IMG/VR virus record: IMGVR_UViG_3300005617_000015
Location: 1-44,683 of that record
Direction: 5' to 3' (one strand)
DNA from: a virus
Length of the DNA: 44,683 nucleotides
Shown here in pieces: positions 12,156 to 26,548 of the stretch (position 1 is its first letter; every line of letters begins with the position of its first letter). The notes beneath the pieces are model-generated. The model saw only the letters and a program-made list of their open reading frames with translations. It was not told the DNA's origin and made no database searches. The position numbers were made by a program, and so were the translations under genes.

Positions 12156-13157
12156 ATGTTCAAACGTCTCTGCCTCGCTCTTGCGGGGCTTTTTGCGCTG
12201 GCCAGCCTAGCACAGGCCGCCGGAACTGTCCCGGGCTTTAGCCTGACGCCGCAATTCGATCTGACGGGAACAGTCGCTCCCGGTTGTAAGCTCTATGTGA
12301 TCCAGGCTGGCACTACCGCGACGCCGCAAAATTCCTATTCAGACTCGGGGCTTACGCAGCTTTTGCCGAACCCTCTGACCTGCGATGCCGGCGGCAGAAT
12401 CCAGCAGTTCTTCGTCGCTGACGGCTTGATCAAGCTGCGGCTCACTAAATCCAACGGAACGCAGATTTTCGTCGGGGATAACCTGCTTGTTGTCGGGTCT
12501 TCTGGCGGCGGCGGTGGCGGCGGCACGATTGATCCGACTACGATCGCCTCAACGGGAGATATGAAGGCAGCCTATGGCACGGCTATTCTGTCGGGCTGGG
12601 TCCGTGCAAATGGCCGGACCATCGGGTCAGCAACGTCAGGCGCGACCGAGCGCGCTAATTCCGACGTTCAGGCGCTGTTTGTTTATCTGTGGGGCGCCGA
12701 TGCAAACCTGGCGGTGAGCGGCGGCCGTGGCGTGTCAGCGGCGGCCGATTGGGCTGCGAACAAGACAATCGCAACGCCTGATTGGCGCGGTCGCGCCCTT
12801 GCCGGCCTTGACGACATGGGCAACAGCGCGGCGGGGCGGCTCACGGCCACCTATTTCGGAACGGTGGCGACCGTGCTTGGTGCGGCGGGAGGGACTGAAA
12901 GCAGGACGCTTACTGCGGCTCAGCTTCCATCGAGTATCCCCTTCACCGATCCGGGCCACACACACGCAGCTCAATGGGAAATGGGGAATTCGACTGGCAC
13001 TGGAGACTTCCCACCTCGCGGCGTCACTAATACCGGCGTGTTCAAGACTGTTACGGTTTCCAGCGCGACGACGGGCATCACGATCAATCCGAGCGGTGGC
13101 CAAGCACATGCGACTGCTTCACCGATGATGCTAGCAACCTTCTATCTGAAGCTTTGA
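12156..13157 (+). CDS. Tail fibre protein with signal peptide, virion-anchor domain and collar-type C-terminus
   Basis: The 333-residue protein has three parts. Residues 1-21 are a textbook Sec signal (basic MFKR, hydrophobic core, AQA cleavage site). Residues ~28-115 match the common phage fibre anchor pattern (GCKLYVIQAGT, CDAGGRIQQFFVADGLIKLRLT). A seven-glycine linker follows at ~118-124. Residues ~145-333 resemble the phage tail collar/fibre-tip module (SGWVRANGRTIG, TPDWRGRALAGLDDMG, AAQLPSS, C-terminal HATASPMMLATFYLKL). It probably binds the cell surface. A secretion signal on a virion fibre is unexpected, because virions assemble in the cytoplasm. The start is firm: ATG 12156 follows a terminator and no other ATG fits the signal. 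Confidence 0.85.
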   Translation: MFKRLCLALAGLFALASLAQAAGTVPGFSLTPQFDLTGTVAPGCKLYVIQAGTTATPQNSYSDSGLTQLLPNPLTCDAGGRIQQFFVADGLIKLRLTKSNGTQIFVGDNLLVVGSSGGGGGGGTIDPTTIASTGDMKAAYGTAILSGWVRANGRTIGSATSGATERANSDVQALFVYLWGADANLAVSGGRGVSAAADWAANKTIATPDWRGRALAGLDDMGNSAAGRLTATYFGTVATVLGAAGGTESRTLTAAQLPSSIPFTDPGHTHAAQWEMGNSTGTGDFPPRGVTNTGVFKTVTVSSATTGITINPSGGQAHATASPMMLATFYLKL

Positions 13158-13501: not shown

Positions 13502-14055
13502 CAATCCCAGTCCTGAAGATCAAGGTTCTCCCTAAGCCGGTTGTCAAAGGGAAGATGGATGTCCGCTTTCCTGCAAACGTAATTGCCGATGATTTTCTGA
13601 CTGTCTTCAAGGCGAACGGAGCCTATACTTTCGGAGCGGACTACACTCTTCTTGATCCAAGCGCGATCATAGATGCTGCATCATCCCTTATCGCAGTGTA
13701 TGACCAGAGTAGCCAAAGCTGGAAGGTGAACACGGTCGCTGGGTTGCTCCAGCAGGCACCTTATGTCGAGCAGCATATTACGGGACCTGGCCCGGTCACA
13801 ATTGCAAACAATGCCGGCGTCGTTCGCGTCAATCAAACCGTTGGGGCCGCCATCACTCTTAATATGGGTCCTTCAGCCTCTAAAACTTGTCCAGTTCTGA
13901 TAAGCGACTGGAAGGGTGACGCAGGGACAAACAACATCACGATCAATCTCTCTGGAAGCGACAAGTTTCCCGGGAATCTCACGAGCTGGAAGATCGCGGG
14001 TGATACCGGCAGCGTCTTCCTGAGGCCAATTGGAGGCGTCGGGTACGCACTATGA
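13498..14055 (+). CDS. Tail fibre-associated protein
   Basis: The 185-residue protein has no signal peptide. Its C-terminal half (VRVNQTVGAAITLNMG, FLRPIGGVGYAL) has the repeating Gly/hydrophobic pattern of fibre shafts and trimeric beta structures. Overlapping codons link it to the genes on both sides (13498 and 14052). It sits between a collar-type fibre and a beta-helix spike, suggesting it joins the spike to the virion. Function is inferred from context. Confidence 0.68.
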   Translation: MTIPVLKIKVLPKPVVKGKMDVRFPANVIADDFLTVFKANGAYTFGADYTLLDPSAIIDAASSLIAVYDQSSQSWKVNTVAGLLQQAPYVEQHITGPGPVTIANNAGVVRVNQTVGAAITLNMGPSASKTCPVLISDWKGDAGTNNITINLSGSDKFPGNLTSWKIAGDTGSVFLRPIGGVGYAL

Positions 14056-15854
14056 GATATCTGCATAAGCTTGTTCTGATGGTCGCCTCGGCGGCCTTTT
14101 TTATTGCCTCATCTCAGGCGCAGAATACCGGCACGGTATCCAACCATGCCGTTCCGATCGGGAAGGGTCCCGGCGTTTCCGGCTACACCAGCGTAGCGCC
14201 GGGTGCCACGGGCATCCCGCTTACGAGCAACGGCGCGGGTGTAGACCCGTCGTTCCATGCCGTGACGAATGCCGGCATCGCGCCAGGCGCAGCCAATACG
14301 GTGAAGGGCTCCGTCAACGGAACGACGACAGGCGACCTTGCGATTGCCTCCTGCTCGTTGGCCTATCAGTTTACGCAGTGGGTCACAGGTACGGGCTGGC
14401 AATGCGGTCTTAACCCGGTCTTGCCATCCCGTGCGGTAGCGCTGACGCTTAATCTATCGGCGTTCTCTGTTGTGACGACGCAGGGATATGCCACGGCCGG
14501 TGATGGTGGGGGGGCCACATTCCAGAAGCAGGCGGTCGGAACGTCGTTTATCGATCAGAACCTCGCTAATGCGCCATGCACCATCGCGGGCGGTAGCGCG
14601 TACACAAACGGCACCTATTACGGCGTCTTTCTGACGGGCGGCAGCGGGGCGCTGGCGTTCGCTGTCGTCACGGTTTCGGGCGGCGCGGTAACAGCCGTGG
14701 ATGTCACGTACTCGGCAGGCAACAAGTATAAGGTCGGTGATGTCCTCACCGCGGCTGCATCCTCGATTGGTGGCACGGGAAGCGGCTTCACGTGTACGGT
14801 CAATGCGATCGTCTCGGCGAAAGCATCGTTCACCGATACCGCTTCCAACCCGTGGCAGTACGTCGTTGATAGCGGCGGCATAGCCAATACGCGGCAGTTC
14901 GGCGCAAAAATTGATGGGTCAACGGACGACTTTGCGAGCATCCAATCGGCGCTTTACTTTGCAAACTATACCACCGATCTCGCCGTTGGTAGCATCACCG
15001 GACATTGGGGCGGGAAGGTATTTCAGCCGAGAGGTGCTTCGAACGTCTGCGGGACCACGACGGTTTCTCTAGTCGTCCCACAGGGTGTGCGCTTTGAGGG
15101 CGAGGGTCCTTATTCGTCTATCCTCGGCGTTTGCCCGACGTTCTTCGCTGCAACGCACTTCATTGAGCTATGTAATCCTAACTGGCATTTTGCCTGCTTC
15201 GATGCGCGCATTGAGGCCATGGGCCTAACGGTGACCCGGTCGCAGGCCGCAAACGCCAACATCGCCATGGTTCATAGCAACAACGTCCAGCACACCGGCG
15301 GACTGGTGCAGGTCTATATTCAGGCTGGCAATCGCACTTGTTTCTTCTATCAAAAGGGGTACGGCGGCGCGTCTTACGTCACTTACGAAGACGGCGAATG
15401 CGGATATAACGGTTCTAATTTCGGCATCCGCATCGGTGACAGCACCGCAAGCGGGATGAACGTAAGCGGCACCGTTTTCGATATGAATAAAATGGTCGTC
15501 GGCGGCCCGGCAACCGCTCCGCTCGCTGCGCAGGCAGCATTCGTTATCCAAGGTGGGTTGGTTCAAATTCGAAACAGCCATTCGGAGCAAATTCCGCAGG
15601 GGATTGTCATCGACAGCCAAGGTGCGTCCGTTGCCTCCACCATGGTGAAGATTTCAAACTACAACGCCGGCTCTGGCAGTGTCACATGCACGGCTACCGC
15701 GCAGATCAATAGCACCAACATCAGCGGCAACACTATTATGGAGATGGTGCCCGGCGGAAGCTGCACGGTCGTCGTCGCCAACGGGTTGGGCGCGAACGTA
15801 ACCACCAACATCGTCCAGCAGACCAAATTCACGCCGAACGCCACCACCTTCTAA
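14052..15854 (+). CDS. Beta-helix tail spike with N-terminal signal peptide
   Basis: The 600-residue protein begins with a clear Sec signal (MRYLHKLVLMVASAAFFIASSQA, cleavage after SQA). Next is a linker type often seen in rhizobial phage tail proteins (GTVSNHAVPIGKGPGVSGYTS). Around residues 280-300 the stretch FGAKIDGSTDDFASIQSAL is the classic start of pectate-lyase-like right-handed beta-helix spikes, and the rest has the repeating beta-helix pattern. It is likely a polysaccharide-binding or depolymerising receptor protein. The active site cannot be read from sequence alone. An intrinsic-terminator-like hairpin lies inside the signal-peptide codons. Start: ATG overlaps the previous stop (ATGA). 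Confidence 0.8.
   Translation: MRYLHKLVLMVASAAFFIASSQAQNTGTVSNHAVPIGKGPGVSGYTSVAPGATGIPLTSNGAGVDPSFHAVTNAGIAPGAANTVKGSVNGTTTGDLAIASCSLAYQFTQWVTGTGWQCGLNPVLPSRAVALTLNLSAFSVVTTQGYATAGDGGGATFQKQAVGTSFIDQNLANAPCTIAGGSAYTNGTYYGVFLTGGSGALAFAVVTVSGGAVTAVDVTYSAGNKYKVGDVLTAAASSIGGTGSGFTCTVNAIVSAKASFTDTASNPWQYVVDSGGIANTRQFGAKIDGSTDDFASIQSALYFANYTTDLAVGSITGHWGGKVFQPRGASNVCGTTTVSLVVPQGVRFEGEGPYSSILGVCPTFFAATHFIELCNPNWHFACFDARIEAMGLTVTRSQAANANIAMVHSNNVQHTGGLVQVYIQAGNRTCFFYQKGYGGASYVTYEDGECGYNGSNFGIRIGDSTASGMNVSGTVFDMNKMVVGGPATAPLAAQAAFVIQGGLVQIRNSHSEQIPQGIVIDSQGASVASTMVKISNYNAGSGSVTCTATAQINSTNISGNTIMEMVPGGSCTVVVANGLGANVTTNIVQQTKFTPNATTF
14081..14102 (+). terminator. Terminator-like hairpin inside the tail spike reading frame
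   Basis: GGTCGCC (14081-14087) pairs with GGCGGCC (14090-14096), including one G-U pair, and is followed by six T. It looks like the other rho-independent terminators of this genome, yet its bases encode signal-peptide residues VASAAFFI. It could attenuate transcription of the spike gene unless ribosomes cover it. It is 26 nt downstream of the preceding gene's stop, where a terminator would be expected. Confidence 0.6.
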
Positions 15855-19706: not shown

Positions 19707-20069
19707 ATGCTGCGCATTATTGCGACGGCGCTCTTTGCGCTGCTCTTTGCTACCTCGGCTGAAGCGGCTAGCCGGGTCTGGATTTCGGAATATGGCGTAT
19801 TGGGGTCTGCCCAGAACGGCGTTCCCCAAATCGCTGCGATGCCGGCGCTTGTAATCCAATCGACCTTGGATCTCAGTGGAGGCACCGCGCAAACTTCCGC
19901 GGCATTCGGCGGCCAGACAAAGTTTATCCGCATAGTATGCGAGGTCCAATGCGCCGTTCGCGCTGATGGCTCGGCCGCAACGACATCATCGACTTTGCTG
20001 CCTGCTCTTTCTCCTGAGTACTTCGGCGTCCAAGTCGGCGCTACCGTCTCCGTTATCGCGGCGCCCTGA
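19707..20069 (+). CDS. Exported tail-region protein with beta-rich mature domain
   Basis: The 120-residue protein has a clear signal (MLRIIATALFALLFATSAEA|ASR) and a beta-rich mature part with RVWISEYGVLG, TKFIRIVCEVQCAVRAD and PEYFGVQVGATVSVIAAP. This pattern recurs in small proteins beside tail genes in rhizobial phages. GGAG lies upstream of ATG 19707. The gene directly precedes the giant receptor-binding gene, so it could be a cap or accessory protein of that protein. Why it should be exported is unclear. Confidence 0.7.
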   Translation: MLRIIATALFALLFATSAEAASRVWISEYGVLGSAQNGVPQIAAMPALVIQSTLDLSGGTAQTSAAFGGQTKFIRIVCEVQCAVRADGSAATTSSTLLPALSPEYFGVQVGATVSVIAAP

Positions 20070-20071
20070 TC

Positions 20072-23000
20072 ATGGCTCTGGGAAAACTAGGAGCTCGGGG
20101 CGGGTTTGGCTCCCTCGGAGCCCGTGGGAAGGCGAGCGGGGGCAGCGCGCCCGTCGTCACCACTCTGCTGGGCGCCGGCACCCTCAACGCCGCGGCTGAC
20201 CTCTCATTCAGCACCTATAACGGCCGGGCTGTGTCCATCGTGGACGCCTTCGCCTACAATGATACGTGGGTCAATTTGCAGGCGTGGGCCACGACGGAAG
20301 CGGGCAGGGGCGCCAACTACGATATTTGCTGGGCCATCGGCATTCCCTACACCAAGGCGATGTCCGACGTTAACGCCGGCACCGAGGACAGCCAGTACAA
20401 CACGCTGTTTGACACGATCCTGGCCGCGCGGCCGTCGCAATCAACGATCTATCTGCGCATTCTCCCGGAGTTCCAGCTCTCCGGAAAGCCTTGGTATTCG
20501 ATCGGCGCGGAGACGGCCTACAAGGCGGCGTTTATCCGGATCGTCGGGCTTGCCCGCGCGAAGTCCGCCAAGTTCAAGATCATCTTCAACCCGAACTACA
20601 CGACGGCTGCCTATGACCCGATGCTGTCATATCCCGGCGATGCCTACGTCGATGTGTTCGGGCAGGACGTCTACAAGATCTCTGTATTCGATGGCAACGG
20701 CGCGGCTGCCTGGAACGCCCGCCTGACCGAAACCTACGGCCTGAACTGGCTGGTTTCAACCGCCGCAGCGCACAGCAAGCCAATCTGCATCCCGGAATGG
20801 GGGGTGGACAACAACGCCGACGGCCCGTTCATCGCGTCGATGGCGGCATGGCTGACGGCGAACCATGCTCTCTTCCACTGCTACTTCGATGTCAACAACG
20901 ACATCTATCATTACAACAGCATCAGCAATCTGCAATATCCGCTGGTCACCGACGCCTTCGTGACCGCGTTCGGCACGCCGACGGATACGGCTGTCGCAGC
21001 CTATCGCACCACCACGCAGACGATGGTCTCCGGCCGCACGCAGACCTGCGACGTGGAGCTGATTCCGCCGCTTGGTGCCGAGTTCGCCATCAATATGTGG
21101 TGGCGTGACGTCTCAACGGTGGAAGGCTTCCTGTTCAACCTGCATGAGCCCACGGCTGCGCAGGGTGCAGCATCCATCGGCGGAACGACACTCCAGTCGC
21201 TCTGCCTGTATTTCTCCGGCATCTCGATCGCCACGCTCAGCCTGCAAAACCTGTTCTATCTGACCGGGATCGACAAGGCAGGCAACAAGCTCAACGCCTC
21301 GACCATTGCCGTGAATACCTATGGTTCCGGCTATGGCGTCACCTCGACCGAGGCACAGGTCAACAACGGCGGCACGGCTGCGCTGGTCACGGTCCAATAC
21401 CGCTCCGGGAATATGGAGCTTTGGATCACCTATCGCGGCATGGCTCCCCGCAGGATCATCTCCCAAGCCTGCACGTGGACCGGAACGTCGAAGTCGCTCT
21501 ATTTCCGGGTAGGAAGCTCAAACACCACCATCAACTCGACCGGCTCGATGGAAATCGAGATGCCGATCGTGATGCCGACGCGCAGCATGTCGCAGAACGA
21601 GATCGCGCAGCTTTCCAACGGCGTCAGCCCCGAGAAAATCAATATCACGGCTGAGAAGGCGTCGGCCTCGATCAAGTTCGCGATCGTCACGGATGGCACC
21701 ACGACTGCGGCCGACCGCGCGGATGCGGCCTGCCCGGTGGACGGCAACACGCTGACGCTGAATGGCGCGGTCTATACCTTCCGGACCTCACCGTCCCTCG
21801 CCAGCGAACTCAAGACCTATACCGACATTACCATCAACCAGGCCGTCGCGACGGATGGAACGTTCACATTTGCGTCGGCGCCGGCCATCTTCCCGGTCAA
21901 CGGGCAGCATGTTTCACTGCACAAATCGACGATGCCGAGCGCGATCGATGCGCGTCTCAGCTATTACGTCGTCAATGCGAACTCCGGCCTCAACACCTAC
22001 CAACTTTCGCTGACGAATGGCGGCGCTGCGCTCACGTTCTCAGCCGGCGCATCCAGTGCCGCCGCGCGTCTGTCCTACGTTCCGCAGATGCTCGACGACC
22101 TCTGCACGCAGTTGAATGCGCTGACCCCGAGCACGGGCGGCGCCTCGAACGCGACCTATGAGGCCTATGGCTCGGATACACTGGTCATCACCCACCGCAC
22201 CGCGGGCGCTCCGAGCGTTGCCTTCCCGTCGTTCACGTTCGACTGCAACGCAACCAACGTCAAATTCCCGACCAACAAGCGCCTTGCCCTGGCGTGGGCC
22301 TACATCACCGATTATACCGGCTTCAAGATCGGCCTGCTCGGCAGCGCTGGCGGTATCCGCCGCCGCTCGTCCGCATGGGTCACGCCTCCCGGCACGGCCC
22401 TTGCCCCGAACAGCCAGGTCACCGGAGCGATGCTGGTCAATTCGTGGACCGATGGCATGGTCACGAACTCGGTGGGCGGCACAAGCTCGCTCGCCCTCTC
22501 GGGTCTCTATACCGGCATTGCGCCCCCGAGCGGTGCCCAGCTCAAGCTCTACGACCAGAACGGCAATACGCAGATCCACGACTTCACGTCGCTGACCTCG
22601 TTCACGGTCAACACGACGGCCAAGACCTGGACCGGCAAGATCACGGAGTCCGCTGCCAAGAAGTGGAGCAGCCTTCAGGTGCGGAAGACCGGCTCCTCTC
22701 AGGTCCACGCGCAGAGCGAGCTCCGGTTCGGGTTTGGCTATGTGGTCCTCGCCCATGGCCGCAGCCATGCGACCGATTGGTTCAACGACTACGCGACCAA
22801 CGATGTCGCCCCGAATGGCTTCCTCAGCCAGTTCAACGGGACCGGGATGGTCTCGGGTGCGAACGGCTCGTTCCCGATTGACAACACATGGCACGTCTAC
22901 GTCGGTGCAACGACCGCTGGTGCGGGTGCCGTGGCGTTCGGCAACAAGGTGTCCAATGCCAACAGCGCTTGCGTGGCCTATATCTCCCGCGCGGTGGGTG

Positions 23001-24181
23001 GCGTCTCGTTTGCGACCCTGACCGACGTCTCGGTCTGGACTGCTTTCCAAGCCGATCTCGCGACCACCTGGGCCGACACGTCTCTGATGGCGCCGGCCGC
23101 TGCGATGATCTGGACGCACTCGGCAGAGGATTACGGCAGCGTCTCGACCGGCTTCCTGTCACAGCTACGAACGATGTTGACCACCTATGTCAGCGCCAAT
23201 TGCAAGCTCGGTGTCACCACCAGCTTGACGGCCGGCGATTCCGCTGACGGAACGCAGCTCACGGGCAGGGTCCGTGGCCAGCAGATCGACTACAAGACGG
23301 ATCGGTTGTCCGCCAGCGACACGTCGGTATTCGATGCCGGCGATTACAGCTACGACCGCCTCAATACCGCAGACGGGATCCATTCCAGCGGCATCCTGGA
23401 CCACAAGGTCAAGGGCGAGACGGCGGCGATCGGATTCATCGGAGCCATGGCCGGCACGATGAATTCGGCAACCGGCCCGACGATTGCCTCGATCGTTCGT
23501 TCTGGCGCCAACATCGACATCACGTGGAACCTGAACGGCGCGACCACGCTTCAGGTGCCGAGCGTGGGAACAGATATCCGCGGTTTCGACGTGGCGCTTT
23601 CGTCGAGCAATTTCCTGCCGATCATCCGCAACCCGACTGCGGACAACACCACCGACACGTTCACGGACAGTGCTCACGGCTGGAACAATGGCGATCCCGT
23701 CATCATCACGAACAACTCCGGCTCTCAGCCCGCCGGGATCAGTGCTGGCGTCAAATACTTCGTCGTCAATGCTGCGACGAACACCTATCAGCTTTCAGCG
23801 ACGGTCGGCGGTGCGGCCATCAACTTCACGACCAACGGCCTCAATCTCTACGCCTACAACACCCGAAACCTTCTGGCTCAGACCTCGCACACGATCACGT
23901 CGGCGACCACGACCCGGATTGTGCTTGCTGCCAACCCCGGCGCCGCAGTGCAGGTCCGCTACCTCTACGGCCGCCCCGGTCGTCAGAACGCGGGCTCGTT
24001 CGATCCGACGCCGGCTCTCGATCTGACCGGCGAAACCGCGATGACCGAGCTGTGGGGGCCGACTTCACCGGCAGGCGCACAGGGCAACTTCCTGAACGAC
24101 AACTTGGCGCGGACCTATACGAGCACGACGACGATCGGAAGGTTGGCTAGGATGACGTCGAGCCCGATCGTGGTTACCTAA
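20072..24181 (+). CDS. Giant tail receptor-binding protein with GH26-like glycosidase and SGNH-esterase-like domains
   Basis: The 1369-residue protein begins with a short Gly-rich anchor (residues 1-30). A GH26-like (beta-mannanase-type) barrel spans ~30-310: Glu133 in LRILPEFQLSGKPW matches the acid/base motif, and Glu242 in CIPEWGVDN is the likely nucleophile. The 109-residue spacing fits that family. A concanavalin-like region covers ~315-510. A later region has an SGNH-hydrolase pattern: Ser898 in AHGRSHATDW and the DGIH block at Asp1101-His1104. Two similar beta modules (VVNA...NTYQLS) lie near 631 and 1229. The enzyme pair suggests cutting and deacetylating capsular or exopolysaccharide. 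No signal peptide. The stop overlaps the stop of the convergent operon. Confidence 0.83.
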   Translation: MALGKLGARGGFGSLGARGKASGGSAPVVTTLLGAGTLNAAADLSFSTYNGRAVSIVDAFAYNDTWVNLQAWATTEAGRGANYDICWAIGIPYTKAMSDVNAGTEDSQYNTLFDTILAARPSQSTIYLRILPEFQLSGKPWYSIGAETAYKAAFIRIVGLARAKSAKFKIIFNPNYTTAAYDPMLSYPGDAYVDVFGQDVYKISVFDGNGAAAWNARLTETYGLNWLVSTAAAHSKPICIPEWGVDNNADGPFIASMAAWLTANHALFHCYFDVNNDIYHYNSISNLQYPLVTDAFVTAFGTPTDTAVAAYRTTTQTMVSGRTQTCDVELIPPLGAEFAINMWWRDVSTVEGFLFNLHEPTAAQGAASIGGTTLQSLCLYFSGISIATLSLQNLFYLTGIDKAGNKLNASTIAVNTYGSGYGVTSTEAQVNNGGTAALVTVQYRSGNMELWITYRGMAPRRIISQACTWTGTSKSLYFRVGSSNTTINSTGSMEIEMPIVMPTRSMSQNEIAQLSNGVSPEKINITAEKASASIKFAIVTDGTTTAADRADAACPVDGNTLTLNGAVYTFRTSPSLASELKTYTDITINQAVATDGTFTFASAPAIFPVNGQHVSLHKSTMPSAIDARLSYYVVNANSGLNTYQLSLTNGGAALTFSAGASSAAARLSYVPQMLDDLCTQLNALTPSTGGASNATYEAYGSDTLVITHRTAGAPSVAFPSFTFDCNATNVKFPTNKRLALAWAYITDYTGFKIGLLGSAGGIRRRSSAWVTPPGTALAPNSQVTGAMLVNSWTDGMVTNSVGGTSSLALSGLYTGIAPPSGAQLKLYDQNGNTQIHDFTSLTSFTVNTTAKTWTGKITESAAKKWSSLQVRKTGSSQVHAQSELRFGFGYVVLAHGRSHATDWFNDYATNDVAPNGFLSQFNGTGMVSGANGSFPIDNTWHVYVGATTAGAGAVAFGNKVSNANSACVAYISRAVGGVSFATLTDVSVWTAFQADLATTWADTSLMAPAAAMIWTHSAEDYGSVSTGFLSQLRTMLTTYVSANCKLGVTTSLTAGDSADGTQLTGRVRGQQIDYKTDRLSASDTSVFDAGDYSYDRLNTADGIHSSGILDHKVKGETAAIGFIGAMAGTMNSATGPTIASIVRSGANIDITWNLNGATTLQVPSVGTDIRGFDVALSSSNFLPIIRNPTADNTTDTFTDSAHGWNNGDPVIITNNSGSQPAGISAGVKYFVVNAATNTYQLSATVGGAAINFTTNGLNLYAYNTRNLLAQTSHTITSATTTRIVLAANPGAAVQVRYLYGRPGRQNAGSFDPTPALDLTGETAMTELWGPTSPAGAQGNFLNDNLARTYTSTTTIGRLARMTSSPIVVT

Positions 24182-25131: not shown

Positions 25132-25207
25132 TGGTGCCATCGGTCTCGGTTCGAACGGACGACCTGCTCACTACAAATGAGCTGCTCTACCACTGAGCTA
25201 CGATGGC
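25132..25207 (-). tRNA. tRNA-Thr (UGU), with a bulged base in the T stem
   Basis: The minus strand folds as a cloverleaf: acceptor GCCATCG with CGATGGC, D arm GCTCAGTGGTAGAGC, anticodon stem GCTCA with TGAGC, anticodon TGT in loop TTTGTAG, and encoded CCA at the end. It decodes ACA. The T stem is GTCCG on one side and CG-A-GAC on the other: one extra A (complement of base 25146) bulges out of an otherwise perfect stem. This may be a variant, an impaired tRNA or a sequencing error. Confidence 0.82.
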
Positions 25208-26472: not shown

Positions 26473-26548
26473 TGGCGCGCCCCGAAGGATTCGAACCTTC
26501 GACCCCGAGCTTAGAAGGCTCGTGCTCTATCCGCTGAGCTAGGGGCGC
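26473..26548 (-). tRNA. tRNA-Arg (UCU)
   Basis: The minus strand forms a canonical cloverleaf: acceptor GCGCCCC with GGGGCGC, D arm GCTCAGCGGATAGAGC, anticodon stem CGAGC with GCTCG, anticodon TCT in loop CTTCTAA, T arm GAAGG TTCGAAT CCTTC, discriminator G and encoded CCA. All stems are perfect. It decodes AGA, which is rare in GC-rich alphaproteobacteria, so it may support late phage translation. Bacterial tRNA genes are common attachment sites, but this copy is complete and ~1.7 kb from the integrase. Confidence 0.95.

Follow-up and report, generated by a model that had tools for sequence, protein, structure and literature searches.

A probable phage tail protein combining a GH26-like glycosidase domain with a candidate SGNH-like domain

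The tail enzymes of phages that are described in the cited literature are either beta-helix depolymerases or SGNH deacetylases that spare the backbone of the polysaccharide. Experiments on other phages have established that SGNH tail proteins deacetylate host glycans (PMC8471582, PMC9569702) and that Klebsiella prophage fibres have esterase activity (PMC13123978). A GH26 "mannanase" has been reported among the auxiliary CAZymes of mangrove soil viruses (PMC6460857). A limited search of the open-licence literature, which leaves absence unproven, returned no paper combining GH26, bacteriophage, tail and depolymerase. While the classes of enzyme themselves are known, no description was found of a phage-tail GH26 barrel with a degenerate SGNH-like partner.

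The protein considered here is encoded in a virus record of 44,683 bases, the whole of which is called the window. Its ORF (Table 1) is the last large plus-strand gene of the structural module and lies downstream of genes for a portal (phrog_156), a major head protein (phrog_334), the head closure protein Hc3 (phrog_578) and a tail protein (phrog_8763). The N-terminus does not have the look of a signal peptide. Based on gene context and relatives, the product is probably a phage tail protein, for which we infer a location on the virion. The first-pass annotation had described it as a tail protein with both GH26-like and SGNH-esterase-like domains, and the residues it named are all in place: E133 in LPEFQLSGKPW, E242 in PEWG, S898 in GRSH (from 896), and D1101 and H1104 in DGIH (from 1101). 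The two Glu residues are indeed separated by 109 positions in the translated ORF.

Signal-peptide-like hydrophobic starts, unusual for virion proteins, are found in three genes of the structural module (12156-13157, 14052-15854 and 19707-20069). The second of these encodes a 600-residue protein with a beta-helix tail spike-like sequence (DGSTDDFASIQSAL and VRFEGEGPYSSILG stretches). It has no Pfam or PHROG match, and no sister phages were found with this tail gene as query; given this tail spike-like protein, the phage may have two adsorption enzymes. Two tRNA genes are located on the minus strand just past the structural module, at 25132-25207 and 26473-26548 (Thr-TGT, Arg-TCT).

Table 1. Features of the 1369-residue protein and of the adjacent gene, with positions in the window.
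Feature	Position	Strand	Basis
Small upstream neighbour gene (120 aa) whose N-terminus is signal-peptide-like	19707..20069	+	Homologue close to a GH26 ORF in L055 (phmmer 3.3e-12)
Whole ORF, modular putative tail (receptor-binding) protein, 1369 aa	20072..24181	+	Open from ATG at 20072 to stop ending at 24181
GH26-like (beta/alpha)8 catalytic domain (predicted), residues 28-318	20153..21025	+	AF2 model, Foldseek, VIA alignment
Glu133, predicted acid/base	20468..20470	+	Aligns with CtLic26 E109 (profile alignment to 2bv9)
Glu242, predicted nucleophile	20795..20797	+	Aligns with CtLic26 E222
Residues 319-802, outside any recognised family; rich in beta structure, with possible lectin-like and linker modules	21026..22477	+	A DUF match at chance level is the sole Pfam result
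Residues 803-880, beta-rich stretch that probably leads into the SGNH-like domain	22478..22711	+	Inferred from sequence; like the beta region before some SASA domains
Probable SGNH/SASA-like domain, residues 881-1130	22712..23461	+	Global alignment above nearly all decoys
Block I GRSH, residues 896-899, with Ser898 as predicted nucleophile	22757..22768	+	Aligned with GQSN in 16/16 SASA sequences
Block II AVGGVS, residues 974-979	22991..23008	+	Alignment and spacing; block II Gly present
Block III WTHSAED, residues 1014-1020, degenerate W-QGExD	23111..23131	+	Conserved W1014 and D1020; H, S, A in place of Q, G, E
Block V DGIH, Asp1101 and His1104	23372..23383	+	Aligned with DxxH of SASA sequences
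AHGWNNGD module, residues 1197-1256	23660..23839	+	42% identity to a 793-aa ORF in L001, another phage tail protein

The GH26 half of the protein is confirmed by the predicted fold, the family profile and the catalytic residues. Alone, the window sequence scores 17.2 bits with the Pfam GH26 profile (19.8 for the slice), just under the cut-off of 20.2, and a single-sequence PDB search yields a weak match to CjMan26C, in which E242 is paired with a Glu. A degenerate DNA pattern for PGDxYVDxxGxDxY retrieved 71 viral stretches carrying related ORFs, among which a local search identified clear homologues (L066, 174 bits; L031, 139; L036, 114). PF02156 is matched at E<=0.01 by 67 of the 68 aligned full ORFs; these relatives were chosen by the motif itself, and the informative part is the E-values, which go down to 7e-49. 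AlphaFold2 applied to the GH26 region with a 46-row alignment (the window and its relatives) gives a model with a mean pLDDT of 89.0 and a pTM of 0.89. CtLic26 (E 1.9e-14) is the top Foldseek match of this model; with few exceptions, the first 37 rows consist of GH26 entries or of constructs with a GH26 domain. The VIA structural alignment with CtLic26 has a Z of 25.7 over 256 residues at 2.5 A, followed among the matches listed by AlXyn26A (Z 23.8), a beta-1,3-xylanase (22.1) and mannanases (21.7 or lower). The profile built from the 46-row alignment matches CtLic26 (2bv9) at 2.5e-53, with both Glu in register. Structure prediction thus upholds the GH26 fold proposed by the first-pass annotation, but not the likeness to beta-mannanases in particular: since the nearest solved relatives, among the matches listed, are a lichenase and xylanases, the mannanase label is left without support, and beta-mannanase was rejected as the specific activity.

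Close relatives of the protein were found neither among 50,697 phage records nor, for the GH26 and SGNH domains searched separately, among viral contigs; the whole-protein matches in the relative search concern the repeat module only. Outside viruses, a search of 385 genomes from the class to which G001 belongs (the genome of L085, Maritimibacter harenae) gave matches to the 1369-residue protein in six; in five of these the match falls within the GH26 region.

The residues of CtLic26 with which the predicted catalytic pair aligns, E109 and E222, are its acid/base and nucleophile; the 2cip chain has a Gln at the column of E222/E242. The GH26 assignment goes far beyond what chance would give: E133 is kept in 45/45 relatives, E242 in all 43 having a residue there and R129 in 40/45, and the window domain possesses R129, D199 and Y201. 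Its acid/base loop is unusual. The residue before the acid/base is Pro132, at a position occupied by Trp in 31 of the 45 viral relatives and by His in 7; the typical His (as in CtLic26), which is not treated here as defining GH26, is therefore absent. Three further departures from the family are N135Q, G136L and W138G. On account of P132, Q135, L136 and G138, the domain is, as judged from its sequence, a GH26 that has diverged and whose acid/base loop is altered.

GH26-like domains are common in tail or structural proteins of uncultivated viruses. Such ORFs are fused to Mtd_N (L060), to SU10_adaptor (L064) and to modules matching tail-fibre and baseplate PHROGs, and the genes that surround the closest relatives are, among others, those for portal and head morphogenesis (L066), for a tail fibre (L036) and for a head-tail adaptor (L019). 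This fusion to, or adjacency with, tail and head genes argues for an adsorption role of the viral GH26 group. The ORF of the closest GH26 relative (L066:6226-7896, minus strand) is flanked by head morphogenesis and head protein genes, which is an odd position for a tail enzyme. Another viral ORF (L018:9342-12971, minus strand) assembles a right-handed beta-helix and a GH26 domain.

A Pfam scan of 67 GH26-like viral ORFs detected an SGNH domain in none of them. One ORF (L060:1-3201, minus strand; IMGVR_UViG_3300037143_000001) encodes, from the N-terminus, Mtd_N (Major tropism determinant N-terminal), GH26, collagen-like GPT repeats and, at the C-terminus, Polysacc_deac_1, the latter matched above cut-off in an ORF whose C-terminus is cut by the contig end. 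The earlier statement that no such pair was known holds in part: no second protein with GH26 and SGNH domains was found, but L060 independently pairs GH26 with a polysaccharide deacetylase. The idea of cutting and deacetylating by one protein is thus not unique to the window, and the pairing may recur.

The SGNH region has no match in the Pfam library or among PDB sequences, and its single-sequence AF2 model has a pLDDT of 31; remote-alignment tests were therefore used. HMM, hhalign and local alignment with SASA are all non-significant. SASA proteins taken from genomes supplied eight bacterial SASA domains; eight GQSNA proteins of phages formed a second, independent set. Aligned end to end with the bacterial domains, the region reaches z values of 4.3-5.2, as compared to at most 1.86 for other slices of the same protein and to a maximum of 4.13 for 245 natural slices used as decoys (mean 0.01, sd 1.2). 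With the phage set, the values are 3.0-4.8, other slices do not exceed 1.33 and the maximum of the 245-slice decoys is 3.39. One register of the window slice scores 2.95 with this set, under the decoy maximum, so that the separation is good, not complete. Unguided alignments place S898, W1014, D1020, D1101 and H1104 on conserved SASA columns. The region has no match among plasmids and only chance matches in the 385 genomes mentioned above; a DGIH pattern search returned two matches, one of which, L075, is without such an ORF.

Ser898, Asp1101 and His1104 line up with the SASA-type catalytic triad in order and spacing, and block II, AVGGVS from residue 974, had been missed by the first-pass annotation. 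In the SASA sequences blocks I and III are 104-127 residues apart and blocks III and V, in most, 81-85, a spacing that the window fits with 120 and 85. A canonical block I (GDS or GQSN) is absent. The deviation of GRSH, pointed out earlier, is genuine: R897 and H899 replace the Q and N of GQSN, which is present in 16/16 compared sequences, themselves selected by GQSN. The QGExD of block III is not matched either, HSAED keeping the Asp alone of Q, G, E and D. The proposed SGNH-type region stands as far as the triad and block II align with SASA, and is weakened by degenerate blocks I and III and by negative profiles. Among 20,000 shuffles of the protein, blocks I and V occur at SASA-like spacing in 605 and are therefore weak evidence by themselves; when block II is required as well, 23 remain, and with block III a single one, counts that are descriptive and partly post hoc, as the shuffle grammar was written after the window was seen. 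Residues 881-1130 are probably a remote SGNH-like domain, and the odds that it is enzymatically active appear about even. Elsewhere in the protein, a pattern derived from the sequence following this domain, built on a supposed resemblance, gave no matches, and the matches to the N-terminal motif LG[AG]RGGFGSLG were all in genomes and unrelated.

Taking together the predicted GH26 fold, the catalytic Glu pair and the structural-module context, we favour, with a probability of roughly 60%, a virion-attached receptor-binding enzyme in which GH26 cuts the backbone of an acetylated polysaccharide and the SGNH-like domain acts on or binds the same polymer. The GH26 barrel would cut a beta-linked backbone of a host surface or extracellular polysaccharide by retaining double displacement, with E133 as acid/base and E242 as nucleophile. 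The SGNH-like domain would most likely act on, or at least bind, the same acetylated polysaccharide via S898-H1104-D1101, while the beta-rich regions between and after the two domains would bind glycan and trimerise.

A serious alternative, though less likely than not, is that GH26 alone is catalytic and that the SGNH-like domain has degenerated into a module that binds glycan without catalysis. The changes from GQSN to GRSH and from QGE to HSA, at invariant or nearly invariant positions of the 16 SASA sequences, point in this direction, but the retention of Ser, Asp and His together with the block III Asp is what would be expected if catalysis were still selected. That residues 881-1130 form an unrelated fold bearing SGNH motifs by chance seems unlikely: blocks I and V alone arise in 3% of shuffles, and both the non-significant HMM, hhalign and local alignments and the pLDDT 31 model would fit this idea, yet two independent SASA sets give global z values of ~3.0-5.2, where 245 natural slices have an sd of 1.1-1.2, and unguided alignments bring every block into register.

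The two other explanations concern the barrel. A catalytically dead, lectin-like scaffold, to which the unusual acid/base loop (P132, L136, G138) might point, is improbable in view of the retention of both Glu, R129, D199 and Y201. A still smaller chance is given to an auxiliary metabolic enzyme that is released and breaks down polysaccharide in the environment, a role in line with the "mannanase" among viral auxiliary CAZymes (PMC6460857); opposing it are the position of the gene in the structural module, the N-terminus unlike a signal peptide, and GH26 relatives fused to, or beside, tail and head genes.

If the protein is indeed a virion-attached receptor-binding enzyme, active as predicted, the GH26 barrel found on tail proteins across many uncultivated viruses would be a further class of glycosidase in host recognition by phages, and some viral GH26 genes that have been placed under auxiliary carbohydrate metabolism (PMC6460857) would encode enzymes of adsorption. 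The union of a cutter and a deacetylase in a single protein would moreover provide a testable model, resting on predicted activity, for how an acetyl-protected polysaccharide is attacked. More tentatively, the fusion, within one tail protein, of a GH26-type cutter with a deacetylase-type domain whose fold is unrelated might have arisen in phages more than once (SGNH here, Polysacc_deac_1 in L060); a single particle-bound enzyme would then both remove the acetyl groups and cut the backbone laid bare.

With CtLic26, the Clostridium thermocellum GH26 lichenase (PDB 2cip, 2bv9, 2cit), the window protein shares the fold and the catalytic Glu pair in register, but identity is 23%, Pro replaces the His before the acid/base, and CtLic26 is a cellular plant-glycan enzyme whereas the window protein is viral. 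The GH26-like viral ORFs (L066, L031, L036 and others) possess the same domain, with 34-37% identity to the closest two, and several have a structural-gene context; most of them have Trp before the acid/base, in contrast to the Pro of the window. The SASA (PF03629) esterases exhibit the same four blocks in order and spacing and the Ser/Asp/His triad, but the GQSN and QGExD motifs are degenerate in the window and the profile match is not significant. The SGNH tail deacetylases G7C gp63.1, Aristophanes gp41 and Possum gp66 likewise display an SGNH-type esterase domain on a phage adsorption protein; their activity has been shown and no GH26 barrel is described in them, whereas the SGNH domain of the window is predicted. 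L060 resembles the window protein in combining a glycosidase and a deacetylase-type domain within one phage tail-like protein, its deacetylase being of the Polysacc_deac_1 (NodB) type, whereas that of the window is SGNH-like.
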